Shown here piece by piece: positions 9,663-34,367 of a stretch of 34,392 nt of DNA; position 1 is the stretch's first letter, and the number at the start of each line of letters is the position of its first letter. The position numbers and the translations under genes are program-made. The notes beneath the pieces are model-generated. The model was not told the DNA's origin and did no database searches. It saw only the letters and a list, made by a program, of their open reading frames with translations. The stretch is from Methanopyri archaeon (GTDB lineage: Archaea > JAADCQ01 > Methanopyri > Methanopyrales > Methanopyraceae): assembly GCA_013154335.1 (NCBI GenBank), contig JAADCQ010000038.1, positions 1 through 34,392 on the forward strand, read 5' to 3'.

Positions 9663-9687
9663 GTCGCTTTAAGTGCGACTTTTAACA
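9663..9687 (+). promoter_or_regulatory. Inverted repeat and A/T-rich element upstream of hmd
   Basis: GTCGC (9663-9667), a seven-base A/T-rich loop TTTAAGT and GCGAC (9675-9679) form a 5-bp inverted repeat, followed at once by CTTTTAAC. Either A/T block could be the hmd TATA box, 40-55 bp before the ATG at 9727. The hmd start itself is preceded by ACGGGGTGGATCCCCC with a GGGGTGG ribosome-binding site. Confidence 0.35.
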
Positions 9688-9726
9688 AAGCCGCCCGCCG
9701 GCGTTCGTCAACGGGGTGGATCCCCC

Positions 9727-10806
9727 ATGGTGGAGATCAACAAGATCGCCATACTGGGAGCCGGTTGTTGGAGGACCCACGCGGCCACCGGTATCACCAC
9801 GTTCAAGAGGGCCTGTGAGGTCGCCGACCAGACCGGGATAAAGGAAGCGGCCCTGACGCACTCGAGCGTCACGTACGCCGCCGAGCTCAAGAACATCTGC
9901 GACGTCGATGAGGTCGTCGTCTCCGATCCCGTGTTCGACTCCGACGGCTTCACGGTCGTCGACATCGAGGAGGACTGCGGCGTCAGCCTGGACGAGTTCA
10001 TCGAGGCGCACCTGGAGGGTGATCCGGAGGACGTGATGCCGAAGATCAGGGAGTACGTGAAAGAGATCGCCGAGGAGGTACCGAAACCGCCCGAGGGAGC
10101 CATCCACTTCCTGACGCCGGAGGAGATGGAGGACAAGCTCAACATCGTCACCACGACGGACGACTCGGAGGCCGTCGAGGACGCGGACATGATCATCTCC
10201 TGGCTGCCCAAGGGCGGCGTTCAGCCGAAGATCTTCGAGAAGATAATCGACGACATCCCCGAGGGCTGCATCGTGGCCAACACGTGTACGATCCCGGCCA
10301 GGCAGTTCTACGAGATGTTCGTGAAGGACTTCGGCAGGGACGACCTGCAGGTGACCTCCTACCACCCGGCCACGGTGCCCGAGCACAAGGGTCAGGTGTT
10401 CATCGCCGAGGGTTACGCGGACGAGGAAGTCGTGGAGGCCGTGTACGAGCTGGGTAAGGAAGCGAGGGGCGTCGCGTTCAAGGTCCCGGGCTACCTGCTG
10501 GGCCCGGTGTGCGACATGGCGAGCGCAGTTACGGCCATCGTGTACGCCGGTCTGCTGACGTTCAGGGACGCTTGTACCGAGATACTCGGGGCGCCCGTGG
10601 ACTTCGTTCAGAACATGGCCGTCGAGTCCCTGAAGATGATGGCCAAGTTCATGGAGGAGGAGGGCTTGGACAAGCTGGAAGGCGCGCTGGACCCGGCGGC
10701 CCTGACGAACACCGCCGACTCCATGAACTTCGGACCGCTGGCCGACACCGGCCTGCTACCGAAGGCCCTCGAGGTGCTGGAGGAGTACTCGAAGAAGGGC
10801 GAGTGA
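9727..10806 (+). CDS. hmd: [Fe]-hydrogenase, H2-forming methylene-H4MPT dehydrogenase
   Basis: Reversibly reduces methenyl-tetrahydromethanopterin with H2 in CO2-reducing methanogenesis, using the iron-guanylylpyridinol cofactor. Length is 359 aa. The Rossmann domain begins IAILGAGCWRTHAATGI. The catalytic His (His14 of characterised enzymes) is H18, and the Fe-ligand Cys (Cys176 elsewhere) is C187 in VANTCTIPA. DMIISWLPKGGVQPKI and TSYHPATVPEHKGQVFIAEGY are family blocks. The C-terminal helical dimer domain starts at GPVCDMASAVTAIVYAGLLTFRD. ATG 9727 matches the family start; the frame is open upstream to 9673. Residue 15 is Trp where I recall Tyr (GAGCYRTHA) in other methanogens. The adjacent hcg cluster marks this as the genuine enzyme rather than an Hmd paralog. 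Confidence 0.97.
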   Translation: MVEINKIAILGAGCWRTHAATGITTFKRACEVADQTGIKEAALTHSSVTYAAELKNICDVDEVVVSDPVFDSDGFTVVDIEEDCGVSLDEFIEAHLEGDPEDVMPKIREYVKEIAEEVPKPPEGAIHFLTPEEMEDKLNIVTTTDDSEAVEDADMIISWLPKGGVQPKIFEKIIDDIPEGCIVANTCTIPARQFYEMFVKDFGRDDLQVTSYHPATVPEHKGQVFIAEGYADEEVVEAVYELGKEARGVAFKVPGYLLGPVCDMASAVTAIVYAGLLTFRDACTEILGAPVDFVQNMAVESLKMMAKFMEEEGLDKLEGALDPAALTNTADSMNFGPLADTGLLPKALEVLEEYSKKGE

Positions 10807-23541: not shown

Positions 23542-25497
23542 TTGACTGAGGGAGAACGATCGCTTAGCGACGTCAAGAGGCGGATAATGAGGAAACTCGA
23601 GGAGATACTACCCTCGAACGTCGTCGTGACCGACGTCGAGTTCGAAGGACCCGAGGTCGTCCTCTACACCAACGCCCCCCACGTGTTCGTCAAGGACAAC
23701 TCCGAGCTCATATCCAAGGTAGCCAGGGAACTCCAGAAGAGGATCAAGGTCAGACCCAACCCCACCGCCCTATCCCCCATCAAAGTCGCCAGACGCGTCA
23801 TACTAGACTACATACCCGAGGACGCGGGCGTGGGCGAGAAGGACCTCGTCTTCCTCGACACGGGCGAGGTCGTGATCTTCTCCGAAAAACCCGGCCTCGT
23901 CATAGGGAAGGGAGGCAAGAACATCCACAGGATCTCCAGGGACACCGGCTGGGTACCCATAGTCCTCAGGAAACCCCCGATACGCTCCAAGACCATAGAC
24001 ACGACCCGATCCCTCGTCCTCGGCGACGCCTCACGCAAGAAATTCCTCAGGAACGTCAGCAAACGCGTCTTCTGCGGCAGAACCAGGAGCAGAGGCTCCG
24101 AATCCAGATGGGCCAGGGTCAGCGCCCTCGGAGGCTTCCAAGAGGTGGGCCGATCCTCCCTCTTCTTCCACACCGAGGAGAGCAGGGTCCTCATGGACTG
24201 CGGCGTGAACGTCGCCGCACCACCCGACGACCCATCCGCCTACCCCCACTTCAACGTCCCCGAGTTCAAGATGGACGACCTCGACGCCATAATCATCACC
24301 CACGCACACCTCGACCACTGCGGCTTCCTACCGTACTTCTACAAACACAAAGTGGTATCGGAAAGGGTCCCGGTGTACTGCACACCACCCACACGAGATC
24401 TGATGTACCTCCTACTGACGGACTTCATCAAAGTCGTCGAGAAGCGAGGGCACGAACCACCCTTCACCGAACAAGACGTCAAACGCGTCATCAAAAGAAC
24501 CGTCACCATCAAGTACAGGGAACCGACCGACATATCACCCGACATCAGCATCACCTTCCACAACGCCGGCCACATACTCGGCGCCTGCTCCGTCCACGTG
24601 TTCCTCGAGGACAAAGGGCACAACTTCGTCTACACCGGCGACATCAACCCATCACCCTCCAGACTCCTGGACCCCGCCGACAACAGGTTCAAGCGCGTCG
24701 ACTCCATGGTGATAGAATCGACCTACGGGGACAGGAGACACGGTAGCAGGAGGAAACAAGAGGCCAGGTTCAGACGCATAGTCCAAGACACCCTCAAGAA
24801 GGGCGGCAAGGTCCTCATCCCCTCCTTCGCCGTGGGCAGGGCACAGGAGATAATGCTCGTGCTCGAGGACATGTACAGACGCGACGAACTCGAGGCCCCC
24901 GTGTACCTCGACGGTATGATATGGGAAGCCACCGCGATCCACACCGCCTACCCCGAGTACCTGAACAGACACCTAAGAAGGAGGATACTCCGCGAGGACG
25001 ACAACCCCTTCGTGGCCGAGTGCTTCCAACCCGTGGAGGACGCCGAGCACAGGAAGGACATCATAGACTCGGACGACCCCGCCGTGATAATCTCAACGTC
25101 CGGAATGCTCGAAGGAGGCCCCATACTCGACTACCTCAGGGCCCTGGGCGAGGACGAGAAGAACACCCTCATCTTCGTCGGCTACCAGGCCGAAGGCACC
25201 CTCGGTAGAAGGATCCAGGAGGGAGAGAGGGAGGTACCGCTCCCCACCCCCAACGGGAAGACCGAGACCCTACGCGTCAACCTCAGGGTCGAGACCGTGA
25301 GCGGGTTCAGCGGTCACGGGGACTTCATCGAGCTCATCAAGTACGTCAGAACGATAAGACCCAGACCCCCCAGGAGGATCTTCACGAACCACGGCGAGCG
25401 CAGGGCGTGCAGGATACTCTCCAGGAAACTCCAGAGCAAGATAAGGGTAGCCTTCTCCGTGGCCCCCGAGAACCTCGAATGCTTCAGGGTCACGTGA
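23542..25497 (+). CDS. fttA: aCPSF1/FttA, KH-domain beta-CASP ribonuclease
   Basis: Archaeal CPSF73-like endonuclease that cleaves nascent RNA and terminates transcription. 651 aa. Two N-terminal KH-type domains (about 1-70 and 70-145) include the GxxG loop VIGKGGKNIHRIS (120-132). The metallo-beta-lactamase domain has ALGGFQEVGRSS and the metal motif HAHLDHCGF (254-262), then FHNAGHILGACSV and YTGDINP. The beta-CASP domain follows (KVLIPSFAVGRAQE, VIISTSGMLEGGP). The C-terminal metal His lies in VSGFSGHGDF and the last conserved block is RRIFTNHGE. The start is TTG at 23542. Codons are strongly C-ending (GAC, AAC, CCC, ATC/ATA), unlike genes before 22.8 kb. Confidence 0.96.
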   Translation: MTEGERSLSDVKRRIMRKLEEILPSNVVVTDVEFEGPEVVLYTNAPHVFVKDNSELISKVARELQKRIKVRPNPTALSPIKVARRVILDYIPEDAGVGEKDLVFLDTGEVVIFSEKPGLVIGKGGKNIHRISRDTGWVPIVLRKPPIRSKTIDTTRSLVLGDASRKKFLRNVSKRVFCGRTRSRGSESRWARVSALGGFQEVGRSSLFFHTEESRVLMDCGVNVAAPPDDPSAYPHFNVPEFKMDDLDAIIITHAHLDHCGFLPYFYKHKVVSERVPVYCTPPTRDLMYLLLTDFIKVVEKRGHEPPFTEQDVKRVIKRTVTIKYREPTDISPDISITFHNAGHILGACSVHVFLEDKGHNFVYTGDINPSPSRLLDPADNRFKRVDSMVIESTYGDRRHGSRRKQEARFRRIVQDTLKKGGKVLIPSFAVGRAQEIMLVLEDMYRRDELEAPVYLDGMIWEATAIHTAYPEYLNRHLRRRILREDDNPFVAECFQPVEDAEHRKDIIDSDDPAVIISTSGMLEGGPILDYLRALGEDEKNTLIFVGYQAEGTLGRRIQEGEREVPLPTPNGKTETLRVNLRVETVSGFSGHGDFIELIKYVRTIRPRPPRRIFTNHGERRACRILSRKLQSKIRVAFSVAPENLECFRVT

Positions 25498-25509: not shown

Positions 25510-26556
25510 TTGGGCAAACCCAGCACCTACGAGGAGGCAGGGGTGGACATAGACGCCGAAGCCGCGGCCGTCGAAGCCATACGGGAGACCCTGGCCAAGT
25601 ACGGGGTTCAACCCGAGGGCGTCGAGGTCCTCGAGGACATCGGCCACTACGCGGCCGTGATGCGCGTGGGAGAGGACCTGTTCACGTTCAACATCGACGG
25701 CGTGGGATCCAAGGTCCTCGTCGCCCAACTCGTGGACAGGTACGACACCATCGGGATCGACGCGATAGCCATGAACGCGAACGACGCGGTGTGCCTCGGC
25801 GCGAGACCGATCGCCTTCCTCGACTACTTAGCCGTGGAGGAACCCGATCCCGAAGTCGCCGCGGAGATAGCGGAGGGACTGGGGAAGGGTGCCGCCGAAG
25901 CGGGCGCCCCCGTGGTCGGTGGTGAGCTGGCGACCCTACCGGAGATAATCAAGGGCGAGGAGGAAGGGAAGGGCTTCGACCTGGTGGTGGCCTGCCTGGG
26001 TCTCGTCGAGCACGGGCCGATCACGGGGGAGGACATCGAGCCCGGCGACGTCCTGATCGGGTTGAGGTCCTCCGGGATCCACAGCAACGGCCTGACGCTG
26101 GCGAGGAAGGTCCTCCTCTCCGAGTACGACCCCTGGGACGAGTTACCCCACGGGGAGACCGTGGCCGACGAGCTGCTCAGGCCGACGAGGATCTACGTGA
26201 AGCCGGTCCTCGAGGCCTTGGAGGGTAACGAGGTGCACGGGATCGCCCACATCACGGGCGGTGGCCTGGAGAACCTGACCAGGCTCAGGGAGGACGTGTC
26301 CTACGTGGTGAGCGATCCTCCCGAGCCGCACCCGGTGTTCGAGGAGATAAGGAGGCTGGCCGACGTTCCCCTCGACGAGATGTACAGGACCTTCAACATG
26401 GGTGTCGGGATGGTGTTGGTGGTGCCGGAGAACGAGGCGGAGGACGTGCTGGACACGGTGTCGAAACACGTGGAGGCCGAGGTCATCGGCAGGGTCGAGG
26501 AGGGACGGGGCGTGGTCGTGATCACGGACGAGGGCGAGGTGCGCCTAGGCGTTTAA
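25510..26556 (+). CDS. purM: Phosphoribosylaminoimidazole synthetase (AIR synthetase)
   Basis: ATP-dependent ring closure of FGAM to AIR in purine synthesis. 348 aa. Signature blocks are [37 protein letters not shown] (first part binds ATP), [52 protein letters not shown] and [14 protein letters not shown]. The start is TTG at 25510, 12 bp after the aCPSF1 stop. The end overlaps the convergent eL32 gene by 12 bp. Confidence 0.95.
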
Positions 26557-32141: not shown

Positions 32142-34367
32142 GTGACGAGGGGTCGAAAGAGGATCAACGTGGCGATAGCCGGCCACGTCGACCACGGCAA
32201 ATCCTCGCTCCTGGAGAGGATCACCGGCGAATTCCCGGACGAGGAAGGCTTCGAACTCGAACGCGGGATAACCGCGGTCATGAAGGTCATCCCCGTCGAG
32301 GTGGAGGACACCGAGATCAGGTTCCTCGACACGCCCGGCCACTCCGACTTCAGGGAGGAAGTCGGCAAAGCCCTCATGGCCGCCGACGGCCTCGTCCTCG
32401 TCGTGGCCGCCGATGAAGGCGTCCAAGCCAGAACCGAGGTCCTCATAGAACTCGCCAAGGAACTCGGCCTACCCGTCATCCTAGCCGTCAACAAGATGGA
32501 CAGGGCCACCGACTCCGACTTCGAGGAAGTCGTGAACGAGGTCAAGAACCGAGGCCTGGAACCCGCGGCCGTCGTCCCCACCTCCGCGAAGACCGGCGAA
32601 GGCATCGAGGAACTACTCAAAGCCGTGATCGAAAACGTGGAGCCCTCCAGGTGGGGATCCGAGGACGACGAGACCGCGTTCCTCGTCATCGACGTCCACG
32701 AGGAGGAAGGCCTAGGCAACGTGGCCGTGGGAGTCGTAAGATCCGGAACCCTCCGCGAGGGAGACACCCTCAGGATCGGCGACGACGAGTACAGGGTCAA
32801 AGCCCTCATGGGGCCCGACGGCTCCAGGATCCGGGAAGCTCGACCCGGGGACATAGTCCAGGTAGCCTTCGACGAGACCCCCGAGGCCGGATCCCTCCTC
32901 ACCGAAACCGGCGGATACCGCGTCGACAACCCCGAGGACGTGAGACCCTGCGTCAGGTACGCGCTCTCCGTGGACGACCTGAGAACCGCCCTAGACGTCC
33001 TCGAATCCTGGAAACGCAGGTACCTGGGCATCGAGTACGAGGTCGACGAGGACGGCAGACTGCACGTATCGTGCCTCGGGGACGTCCAGTTCGACAAACT
33101 GAAGACCGACATGGAGGAAGCGGGCGTCAACGTCGAGGTCCTAGGGAGGGAGTTCGAAGGCGTCAGAACCGTGGGCGGCAGGGAAACCGGCAGGGCCGGC
33201 CCCACCGTCGTCGAAGTCCTACCTAGAACCGTCGAAGGCGTCAGGGTGTTCAGGAAGGGCAAGGAAAGGACCACGGTGGAGGAACAGACCGCCGCGGCCC
33301 TGGCCGCCGAAGAACTCGGCGTCGACGGCCTCGTCGTCAACATCCTCACCGACGACGAGGTCGACCCGGAGAACCTCGCCGAGGCCGTGGCCGACGCCGT
33401 GGAGAAAGCCGGCGTCTTCGAGGTGTACCCCGTCGAGAACGTGCTGATAGAGGTCGAGAACGTCGGAAAGGCCGCCTCCCTCGTCTACAAGCACGAAGGC
33501 CACGTGATAGAATCAGACGCCGACTCCATCAAAGCCGTCGTCCCGGCCCCCAGGCTCAACGAACTCGTCGACGACCTCATGAAGGAAACCTCCGGCAGGG
33601 CCAGGATCAAACTCCTCTCCTCCCAAGGCGTGGACGGACCCGTCCTCTCCCTCGACCCCGGCACCGTCAACTTCGGAATCGCCTACATACCGAGGAGAGG
33701 CCCCTGCGACGTCACCTCCGTCAAAGTCAGGGCCCCCGAGGACGAACAGGTGGAAGAACTCGCCAGAACGCTCAGGATGTTCCTCGCCGACAGGGAAGAA
33801 CCCGCCGTAGTGTACGTGGGCCACGGACCCGGCAGGGAGACCGCCGTGAAGGCCGTCAAGAAGGTACTCCCCGACTCCGACGTCGTGATAGTCGACGAGA
33901 GCGAGACCACGAAGGAAGCCGTGTACAGGCTATCGTCCGGGAAGCTGGAGAACGTCAGGGCCAAGGACCTTAGGGACCACGGCGTCGCGGCGCTCGCGAT
34001 AGCCAGAAGGGGACAGATGGGCAAGAGGGTGGAACCGAAGGCCTCCAAGGAGGACGTACGACGGAAGGTGAGCTCCGCCTTCGGGGGAGGATCCAAGAAG
34101 TTCGCCGACTACTCCAGACTACACGTCGAAAACCCGGAAGACCTCAAGGAAGGGACGATGCTACAGGTGAAGAACCCCGACCTGATATCCACCGACCTAC
34201 CCAAGGGAGAGGTCGTCGTGTTCCACGGGTGGAGGGAAGACGGCGGCATGATAGCCTCCACCCTCACCGGCGGAAGGATAATAGTGAAACCGGCCGACGG
34301 AACCGGCTCCCTCAAGAACCCACGCGTGTTCTTCGAGGCGTTCAGACCGGTGAAACCCAGGGACTAA
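32142..34367 (+). CDS. Translational GTPase fused to a YqgF/RuvC-like nuclease domain
   Basis: 741 aa. The GTPase domain has G1 GHVDHGKS (14-21), G2 ERGIT (40-44), G3 DTPGH (63-67), G4 NKMD (117-120) and G5 SAK (148-150). An EF-Tu-type domain II follows (about 178-256, GTLREGDTLRIGDDEYRV). The middle resembles EF-G/BipA domain III (LGDVQFDKLKTDMEEAGVNV, 312-331) and domain V (SIKAVVPAPRLNELVDDLM, 462-480). From about 499 an RNase H-fold domain starts with VLSLDPGTVNFGIAYI (D505), then VVIVDESETTKEAV (E586) and DHGVAALAIA (D612), matching the YqgF-type triad. A C-terminal tail (about 650-741) is unassigned. GTG 32142 follows GGGGGGTTT. It is not IF2, EF-2 or a typical SelB. Its function is unknown; action on ribosome-bound RNA is a guess. 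Confidence 0.85.
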   Translation: MTRGRKRINVAIAGHVDHGKSSLLERITGEFPDEEGFELERGITAVMKVIPVEVEDTEIRFLDTPGHSDFREEVGKALMAADGLVLVVAADEGVQARTEVLIELAKELGLPVILAVNKMDRATDSDFEEVVNEVKNRGLEPAAVVPTSAKTGEGIEELLKAVIENVEPSRWGSEDDETAFLVIDVHEEEGLGNVAVGVVRSGTLREGDTLRIGDDEYRVKALMGPDGSRIREARPGDIVQVAFDETPEAGSLLTETGGYRVDNPEDVRPCVRYALSVDDLRTALDVLESWKRRYLGIEYEVDEDGRLHVSCLGDVQFDKLKTDMEEAGVNVEVLGREFEGVRTVGGRETGRAGPTVVEVLPRTVEGVRVFRKGKERTTVEEQTAAALAAEELGVDGLVVNILTDDEVDPENLAEAVADAVEKAGVFEVYPVENVLIEVENVGKAASLVYKHEGHVIESDADSIKAVVPAPRLNELVDDLMKETSGRARIKLLSSQGVDGPVLSLDPGTVNFGIAYIPRRGPCDVTSVKVRAPEDEQVEELARTLRMFLADREEPAVVYVGHGPGRETAVKAVKKVLPDSDVVIVDESETTKEAVYRLSSGKLENVRAKDLRDHGVAALAIARRGQMGKRVEPKASKEDVRRKVSSAFGGGSKKFADYSRLHVENPEDLKEGTMLQVKNPDLISTDLPKGEVVVFHGWREDGGMIASTLTGGRIIVKPADGTGSLKNPRVFFEAFRPVKPRD

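Follow-up and report, generated by a model that had tools for sequence, protein, structure and literature searches.

The gene at positions 32142..34367 of the window (the whole stretch of DNA that was analyzed, 34,392 nucleotides from a Methanopyri archaeon) is a genuine protein-coding fusion gene with a two-part architecture, in which a putative translational GTPase (trGTPase) of the EF-2/EF-G group is continued by a predicted nuclease module of the YqgF/RuvX type. It lies on the forward strand, as do all window features described below, and forms a single frame of 741 codons plus stop, with a GTG start. The window represents one entire contig of a 1.37-Mb genome, and this contig ends 25 bases past the stop codon of the fusion. 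A sequence-only reading of this DNA had proposed the same frame, and conservation over its full length confirmed that it is a gene and not a chance frame. As best explanation for the encoded protein, held with about even confidence, we propose a GTP-dependent, ribosome-docking RNase that most likely acts on rRNA in assembled ribosomes.

That two genes were joined here by a sequencing or assembly error, an explanation with practically no probability left, was refuted by the presence of the same junction in single-contig genomes (G001 and G002) and in unrelated Asgard assemblies. Further, when the Methanopyrus genome G002 was compared with the window, different codons were used for 202 of the 352 residues identical in the GTPase half and for 43 of the 96 identical in the nuclease module. 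In both halves it is thus the protein, and not the DNA, that is under selection.

The GTPase half

The G domain occupies residues 1-167 (32142..32642), as defined by the Pfam family PF00009 GTP_EFTU (1.6e-42, matched residues 6-167) and by a motif census of 20 members of the fusion family. All five GTPase motifs claimed earlier were recovered, namely G1 GHVDHGKS, G2 GIT, G3 DTPGH (with the catalytic His67), G4 NKMD and G5 SAK; G1-G5, including the catalytic His of DxxGH, were kept in all 19 aligned members spanning that region. The domain is compact, with no space for the G' or G'' insertions of EF-G/EF-2, which are likewise missing from LepA and TypA (PMC4342817). In the Asgard members, the G1 motif reads H[AS]Q[HAS]GK(S) as opposed to HVDHGK(S), and G4 reads TKMD as opposed to NKMD, which is unusual among translational GTPases.

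The order of the following domains is the one common to EF-2/EF-G and LepA/TypA (G, II, III, V). An EF-Tu-type domain II had been claimed, and the corresponding β-barrel was found next to the G domain at residues 178-255 (32673..32906; PF22042 EF-G_D2, 1.4e-12, matched residues 181-255), with the Pfam model matching only 5 of the 20 members. An EF-G-like domain III follows at residues 262-340 (32925..33161), identified by hhalign against archaeal EF-2 and by Foldseek matches to EF-G. Comparison of the 20-member profile with archaeal EF-2 gave an hhalign probability of 99.6 across domains I-III. Residues 341-430 (33162..33431) form a shortened and divergent domain IV-like segment with a weak collinear EF-2 alignment and a constant span, and residues 431-493 (33432..33620) a domain V-like segment with a weak match to PF00679 EFG_C (433-490) and in register with EF-2 domain V. 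Both segments align collinearly with EF-2, yet no significant hhalign score was obtained for domains IV and V by themselves. Of the EF-G-like domain III and V segments proposed before, the former was thus recovered by hhalign and the latter by a weak yet collinear match, together with a fold match over the full length: in Foldseek searches with the full-length AlphaFold2 model (pLDDT 60.3, which like the C-terminal model described below is of low to moderate confidence), EF-G, EF-2 and LepA matched across the GTPase part, the best at 1.8e-27.

The 'domain IV' region (residues ~361-430) comprises 67-69 residues in every member, whereas its EF-2 counterpart has ~140 residues in the hhalign alignment. 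Domain IV is therefore much reduced, and a full-length version of the kind that would reach the decoding site was not observed. The scores against the NCBIfam equivalog models were all far below the respective cut-offs (IF-2, 151.9/424; SelB, 124/242; Tet, 116/775; LepA, 111/534; TypA, 108/757), as was that against the EF-G equivalog. Phylogenetic analysis together with archaeal EF-2, EF-1A, aIF5B and SelB placed the fusion GTPases in a separate clade with a support of 99/98, whose place relative to these four factors is unsure because the branches are long. Unlike EF-2/EF-G, the fusion combines a shortened domain IV region with a position in a clade apart from archaeal EF-2. We call the GTPase half an EF-2/EF-G-group translational GTPase that probably constitutes a subfamily of its own, and file it as EF-2-group, not EF-2, because, in the alignment, its domain IV is only about half as long.

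The YqgF-type module and the C-terminal tail

Residues 500-625 (33639..34016) are predicted to be a nuclease module of the YqgF/RuvX-type RNase H fold, based on PF03652, on hhalign comparison with bacterial YqgF and on the modelled fold. The three acidic residues that had been assigned to a YqgF/RuvC-type triad were found in the order and spacing of YqgF: D505 in strand 1 (LDPG; codon at 33654..33656), E586 at the end of strand 5 (VDESETT, the equivalent of the DER of YqgF; 33897..33899) and D612 in the C-terminal helix (DHGVAALAIA; 33975..33977). All three were invariant in 20/20 aligned members and in register with D9, E96 and D122 of E. coli YqgF, and the Glu-Asp spacing is 26 residues in both. 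The wording 'RuvC-like' did not hold and was rejected, since the second acid is located after strand 5, which is the arrangement of YqgF and Tex, and not in strand 4 as in RuvC (PMC3985635).

PF03652 RuvX matched all 20 C-terminal parts at E<=1. The best match, that of the genome G115 (4.2e-7), reached 30.8 bits and so exceeded the cut-off (29.2); the window member scored 19.8 bits and, like most members, remained under the cut-off. In profile-profile comparison with eight bacterial YqgF sequences (hhalign), a probability of 95.5 (E 1.3e-8) was obtained, compared to 0.2 in the cross-controls (nuclease vs. EF-2 and GTPase vs. YqgF). A sequence profile of the module gave weak matches against the PDB, the best being RuvC (E 0.7). 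The module is also the part with the highest identity between Methanopyrus and the main Asgard group, namely 37% vs. 34% for G plus domain II, 23% for domains III-V and 27% for the tail.

The AlphaFold2 model of the C-terminal part (pLDDT 64.7, moderate, from a 5-row alignment) showed the RNase H order of elements (strands 1-3, helix, strand 4, helix, strand 5, C-terminal helix). Foldseek searches with this model returned Tex (2oce), RuvC (4ep5), the UvrC nuclease domain and M. tuberculosis RuvX (7ess), with retroviral integrases (RNase H fold as well) and Pelota also among the top matches. Structure prediction and fold search, which had been proposed as a check of the sequence-only reading, are therefore in agreement with an RNase H fold for the C-terminal part and an EF-G/EF-2 fold for the GTPase part.

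The module shares with bacterial YqgF/RuvX (PF03652, COG0816) the common fold, the acid triad with Glu after strand 5, the DEx-TT segment and the Glu-Asp spacing. Bacterial YqgF/RuvX proteins are free-standing (~140 aa), whereas the module was found in every member as the C-terminal part of a GTPase fusion, followed by an extra domain, and never in a free form of that size. Archaeal DUF460 (PF04312/COG2433) and the Tex/Spt6 domains belong to the RNase H-like superfamily near YqgF, but DUF460 keeps the second acid in strand 4 and Tex is devoid of the third acid (PMC3985635). The fusion module is unlike both. To our knowledge, neither DUF460 nor a Tex/Spt6 domain occurs fused to a translational GTPase.

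The case of Tex raises the alternative that the RNase H module is a non-catalytic platform for RNA or protein binding, and that the whole protein functions as a GTPase switch lacking nuclease activity. Tex was among the Foldseek matches, its YqgF-like domain lacks an acid of the triad, and according to an earlier review the β5 carboxylate of YqgF itself is bent away from the functional site, which counts against catalysis (PMC3985635). However, a binding platform would not need three acids kept invariant in 20/20 members over about 2 changes per site, and the same acids in D. radiodurans YqgF (D22/E106/D122) are needed to digest 16S and 23S rRNA (PMC9601230). We therefore regard this alternative as quite unlikely.

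Downstream of the module, a tail of about 115 residues (residues 626-741; 34017..34364) comprises a linker helix and a small β-rich domain with strands in the model. It is kept in all members and matched no Pfam family and no PDB structure.

Distribution of the fusion and its gene neighbourhoods

Profile searches recovered the same fusion in other genomes, both in Methanopyrus and in Asgard archaea. It was present at full length and in single copy in 5/5 Methanopyrus genomes, the sole genus of its phylum in the collection, with 70-72% identity to the four others; the nearest Methanopyrus genomes include single-contig ones of 1,421,521 and 1,694,969 bases. Over 394 genomes, a profile of the C-terminal half was positive in the five Methanopyrus and in two distant genomes. 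Both distant genes also carry the GTPase, and one of them is interrupted by a contig end. The fusion was found in none of about 390 other, widely sampled archaea. Searches of further archaeal samples of 115, 345 and 36 genomes, runs with no positive genome inside, gave no match, and a free C-terminal module was found neither there nor among the 394 genomes.

In a phylum of 228 genomes, a full-length profile detected 16 carriers with 28-35% identity, of which 15 belong to a family of about 60 genomes and the remaining one to a second family; two of the 16 copies are cut by contig ends. An ESCRT-II Vps25 gene was present in 7/8 carriers tested and was lacking in Methanopyrus and in the three other archaea included in this test, and the phylum is therefore taken to be Asgard. 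The truncated member of G115 (start of contig C49, L034/L037 1-20) begins with the peptide MCIRDS, which we take to be a translated sequencing-adapter remnant of the type met at MAG contig ends; its true N-terminus is missing.

The branches that join the three carrier lineages in the tree are long (about 2 or more changes per site); the fusion is thus old and has been kept. Its patchy occurrence within Asgard (16/228) indicates, on the other hand, that the function is dispensable there.

The distribution of PF03652 itself was also analyzed. Over 197 archaeal genomes the cut-off was passed once, by the fusion of G115, while 10/14 control genomes were positive. Free YqgF/RuvX is thus absent from the sampled archaea, where the sole YqgF-type domain is the GTPase-attached one. 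That the domain occurs only with a ribosome-type GTPase is, at the level of sequence comparison, the strongest hint that the fusion may matter.

In the main Asgard family, the gene order is conserved (L071 1028-12138 and matching regions of L068-L081). Genes for GlpA-like and GlpB-like FAD proteins (glycerol-3-phosphate dehydrogenase-like), a DUF1667 protein and a dual-specificity phosphatase precede the fusion, which is followed by a small protein with Cys pairs, an ABC transporter pair, a radical SAM gene and an EMC3/TMCO1-like gene. Neither these genes nor the neighbours in Methanopyrus point to a function, nor to ribosomes.

A role in DNA or nucleotide metabolism, with the module acting as a Holliday-junction or branched-DNA nuclease and the GTPase recruited to a non-ribosomal task, is improbable in our view. 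The YqgF homologues M. tuberculosis RuvX and H. pylori DprB do act on branched DNA (PMC9601230). Moreover, a dCTP deaminase gene (dcd) is located immediately downstream of the fusion in Methanopyrus, but this linkage is confined to that genus. The GTPase half, in turn, retains EF-G-type domains II, III and V, which serve ribosome binding in characterised EF-G-type members.

An assignment as a defence system was also rejected: PADLOC returned a generic GTPase match only (LeoA, 6.9e-10, residues 4-129), whereas the nuclease part gave no match. No viral carriers were detected in an IMG/VR scan. Among the matches listed for phage records there were only the GTPase halves of IF-2/LepA-like proteins, none covering 80% of the query.

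Elsewhere in the window, an FeGP-cofactor biosynthesis gene (PF10113, 13326-14870) lies close to hmd (9673-10806) in a methanogen hydrogenase cluster, and an FttA-type transcription termination factor (KH_TffA plus β-CASP) is encoded at 23542-25497. A SelD-like (AIR synthase-related) gene at 25510-26556 and a SelB-like gene, which lies on contig C61 of this genome, are together consistent with selenocysteine use in Methanopyrus. The presence of hmd, the FeGP-cofactor gene and the SelD-like gene also agrees with an assignment of the window to Methanopyrus.

Proposed role and known relatives

Ribosome binding, nuclease activity and the substrate of the fusion protein are all properties that we infer. 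If the protein is a ribosome-docking RNase, its EF-G-like body would dock in the GTP state at the ribosomal factor-binding site. Docking would bring the metal-dependent nuclease, located beyond domain V, into contact with RNA in the assembled particle, the target most likely being immature or defective rRNA, and the factor would be released upon GTP hydrolysis. Because domain IV is shortened, ordinary translocation is unlikely. The literature agrees with the earlier claim that bacterial YqgF participates in 16S rRNA maturation, as pre-16S rRNA is a substrate of the E. coli protein only within 70S ribosomes (PMC9601230); the fusion would perform in cis what E. coli YqgF does there by trimming pre-16S rRNA.

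The main rival explanation is that of a ribosome rescue or stress factor, in which the GTPase would sense stalled ribosomes and the YqgF module would cut mRNA or tRNA instead of contributing to rRNA maturation. The patchy, dispensable distribution in Asgard resembles that of condition-specific factors, a shortened domain IV could leave space in the A site for RNA or for the nuclease, and ssRNA and poly(A) are among the RNAs cleaved by bacterial YqgF (PMC9601230). Yet no Pelota, ABCE1 or other quality-control genes were located nearby in the neighbourhoods examined, and a housekeeping role fits the presence in every Methanopyrus at least equally well. Overall, we consider a rescue function unlikely, though less so than the other alternatives, and favour the rRNA-directed RNase. 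In its broader form, the proposal is that the family may constitute an archaeal trGTPase subfamily additional to the seven counted in PMC4342817, a GTP-gated and ribosome-dependent ribonuclease replacing the bacterial free YqgF in these archaea, to which we give a little less than an even chance.

The sequence-only reading knew of no characterised protein of this design. This stood insofar as no paper describing a YqgF-trGTPase fusion was found in the open-access literature. It did not stand for the combination of a trGTPase with an RNase as such, since in clostridia ten Tet proteins are fused to a YacP-like NYN RNase (PMC4342817). These represent the closest precedent, with an EF-2-family trGTPase and an RNase in one chain, and are also a computational finding with no known biochemistry. 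They differ in being bacterial, in belonging to the Tet subfamily and in having an NYN/PIN-fold RNase, in contrast to the RNase H-fold YqgF and the distinct archaeal subfamily described here. A 2015 survey listed seven archaeal trGTPase subfamilies with aSelBL as the sole archaeal addition, and its main text does not mention Methanopyrus (PMC4342817). The pairing of a trGTPase with an RNase is therefore not entirely without precedent. The new features are a nuclease of the RNase H/YqgF type, the occurrence in archaea, a GTPase in a subfamily of its own, conservation over a long time and the coincidence of the fusion with a missing free YqgF.

If the proposed role is true, the conformational cycle of a translation factor would be coupled to RNA cleavage in one polypeptide, with the GTP switch setting the timing of the nuclease and its place on the ribosome. 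This would account for the attachment of the sole YqgF-type nuclease of the sampled archaea to a ribosome-type GTPase, and would point to a need for similar docking in bacterial YqgF, for which pre-16S activity has been reported only within 70S ribosomes. It would also add to the archaeal trGTPase repertoire, regarded as nearly fixed, a new family common to a deep-branching methanogen and Asgard archaea. For heat-stable protein, M. kandleri is the obvious source.
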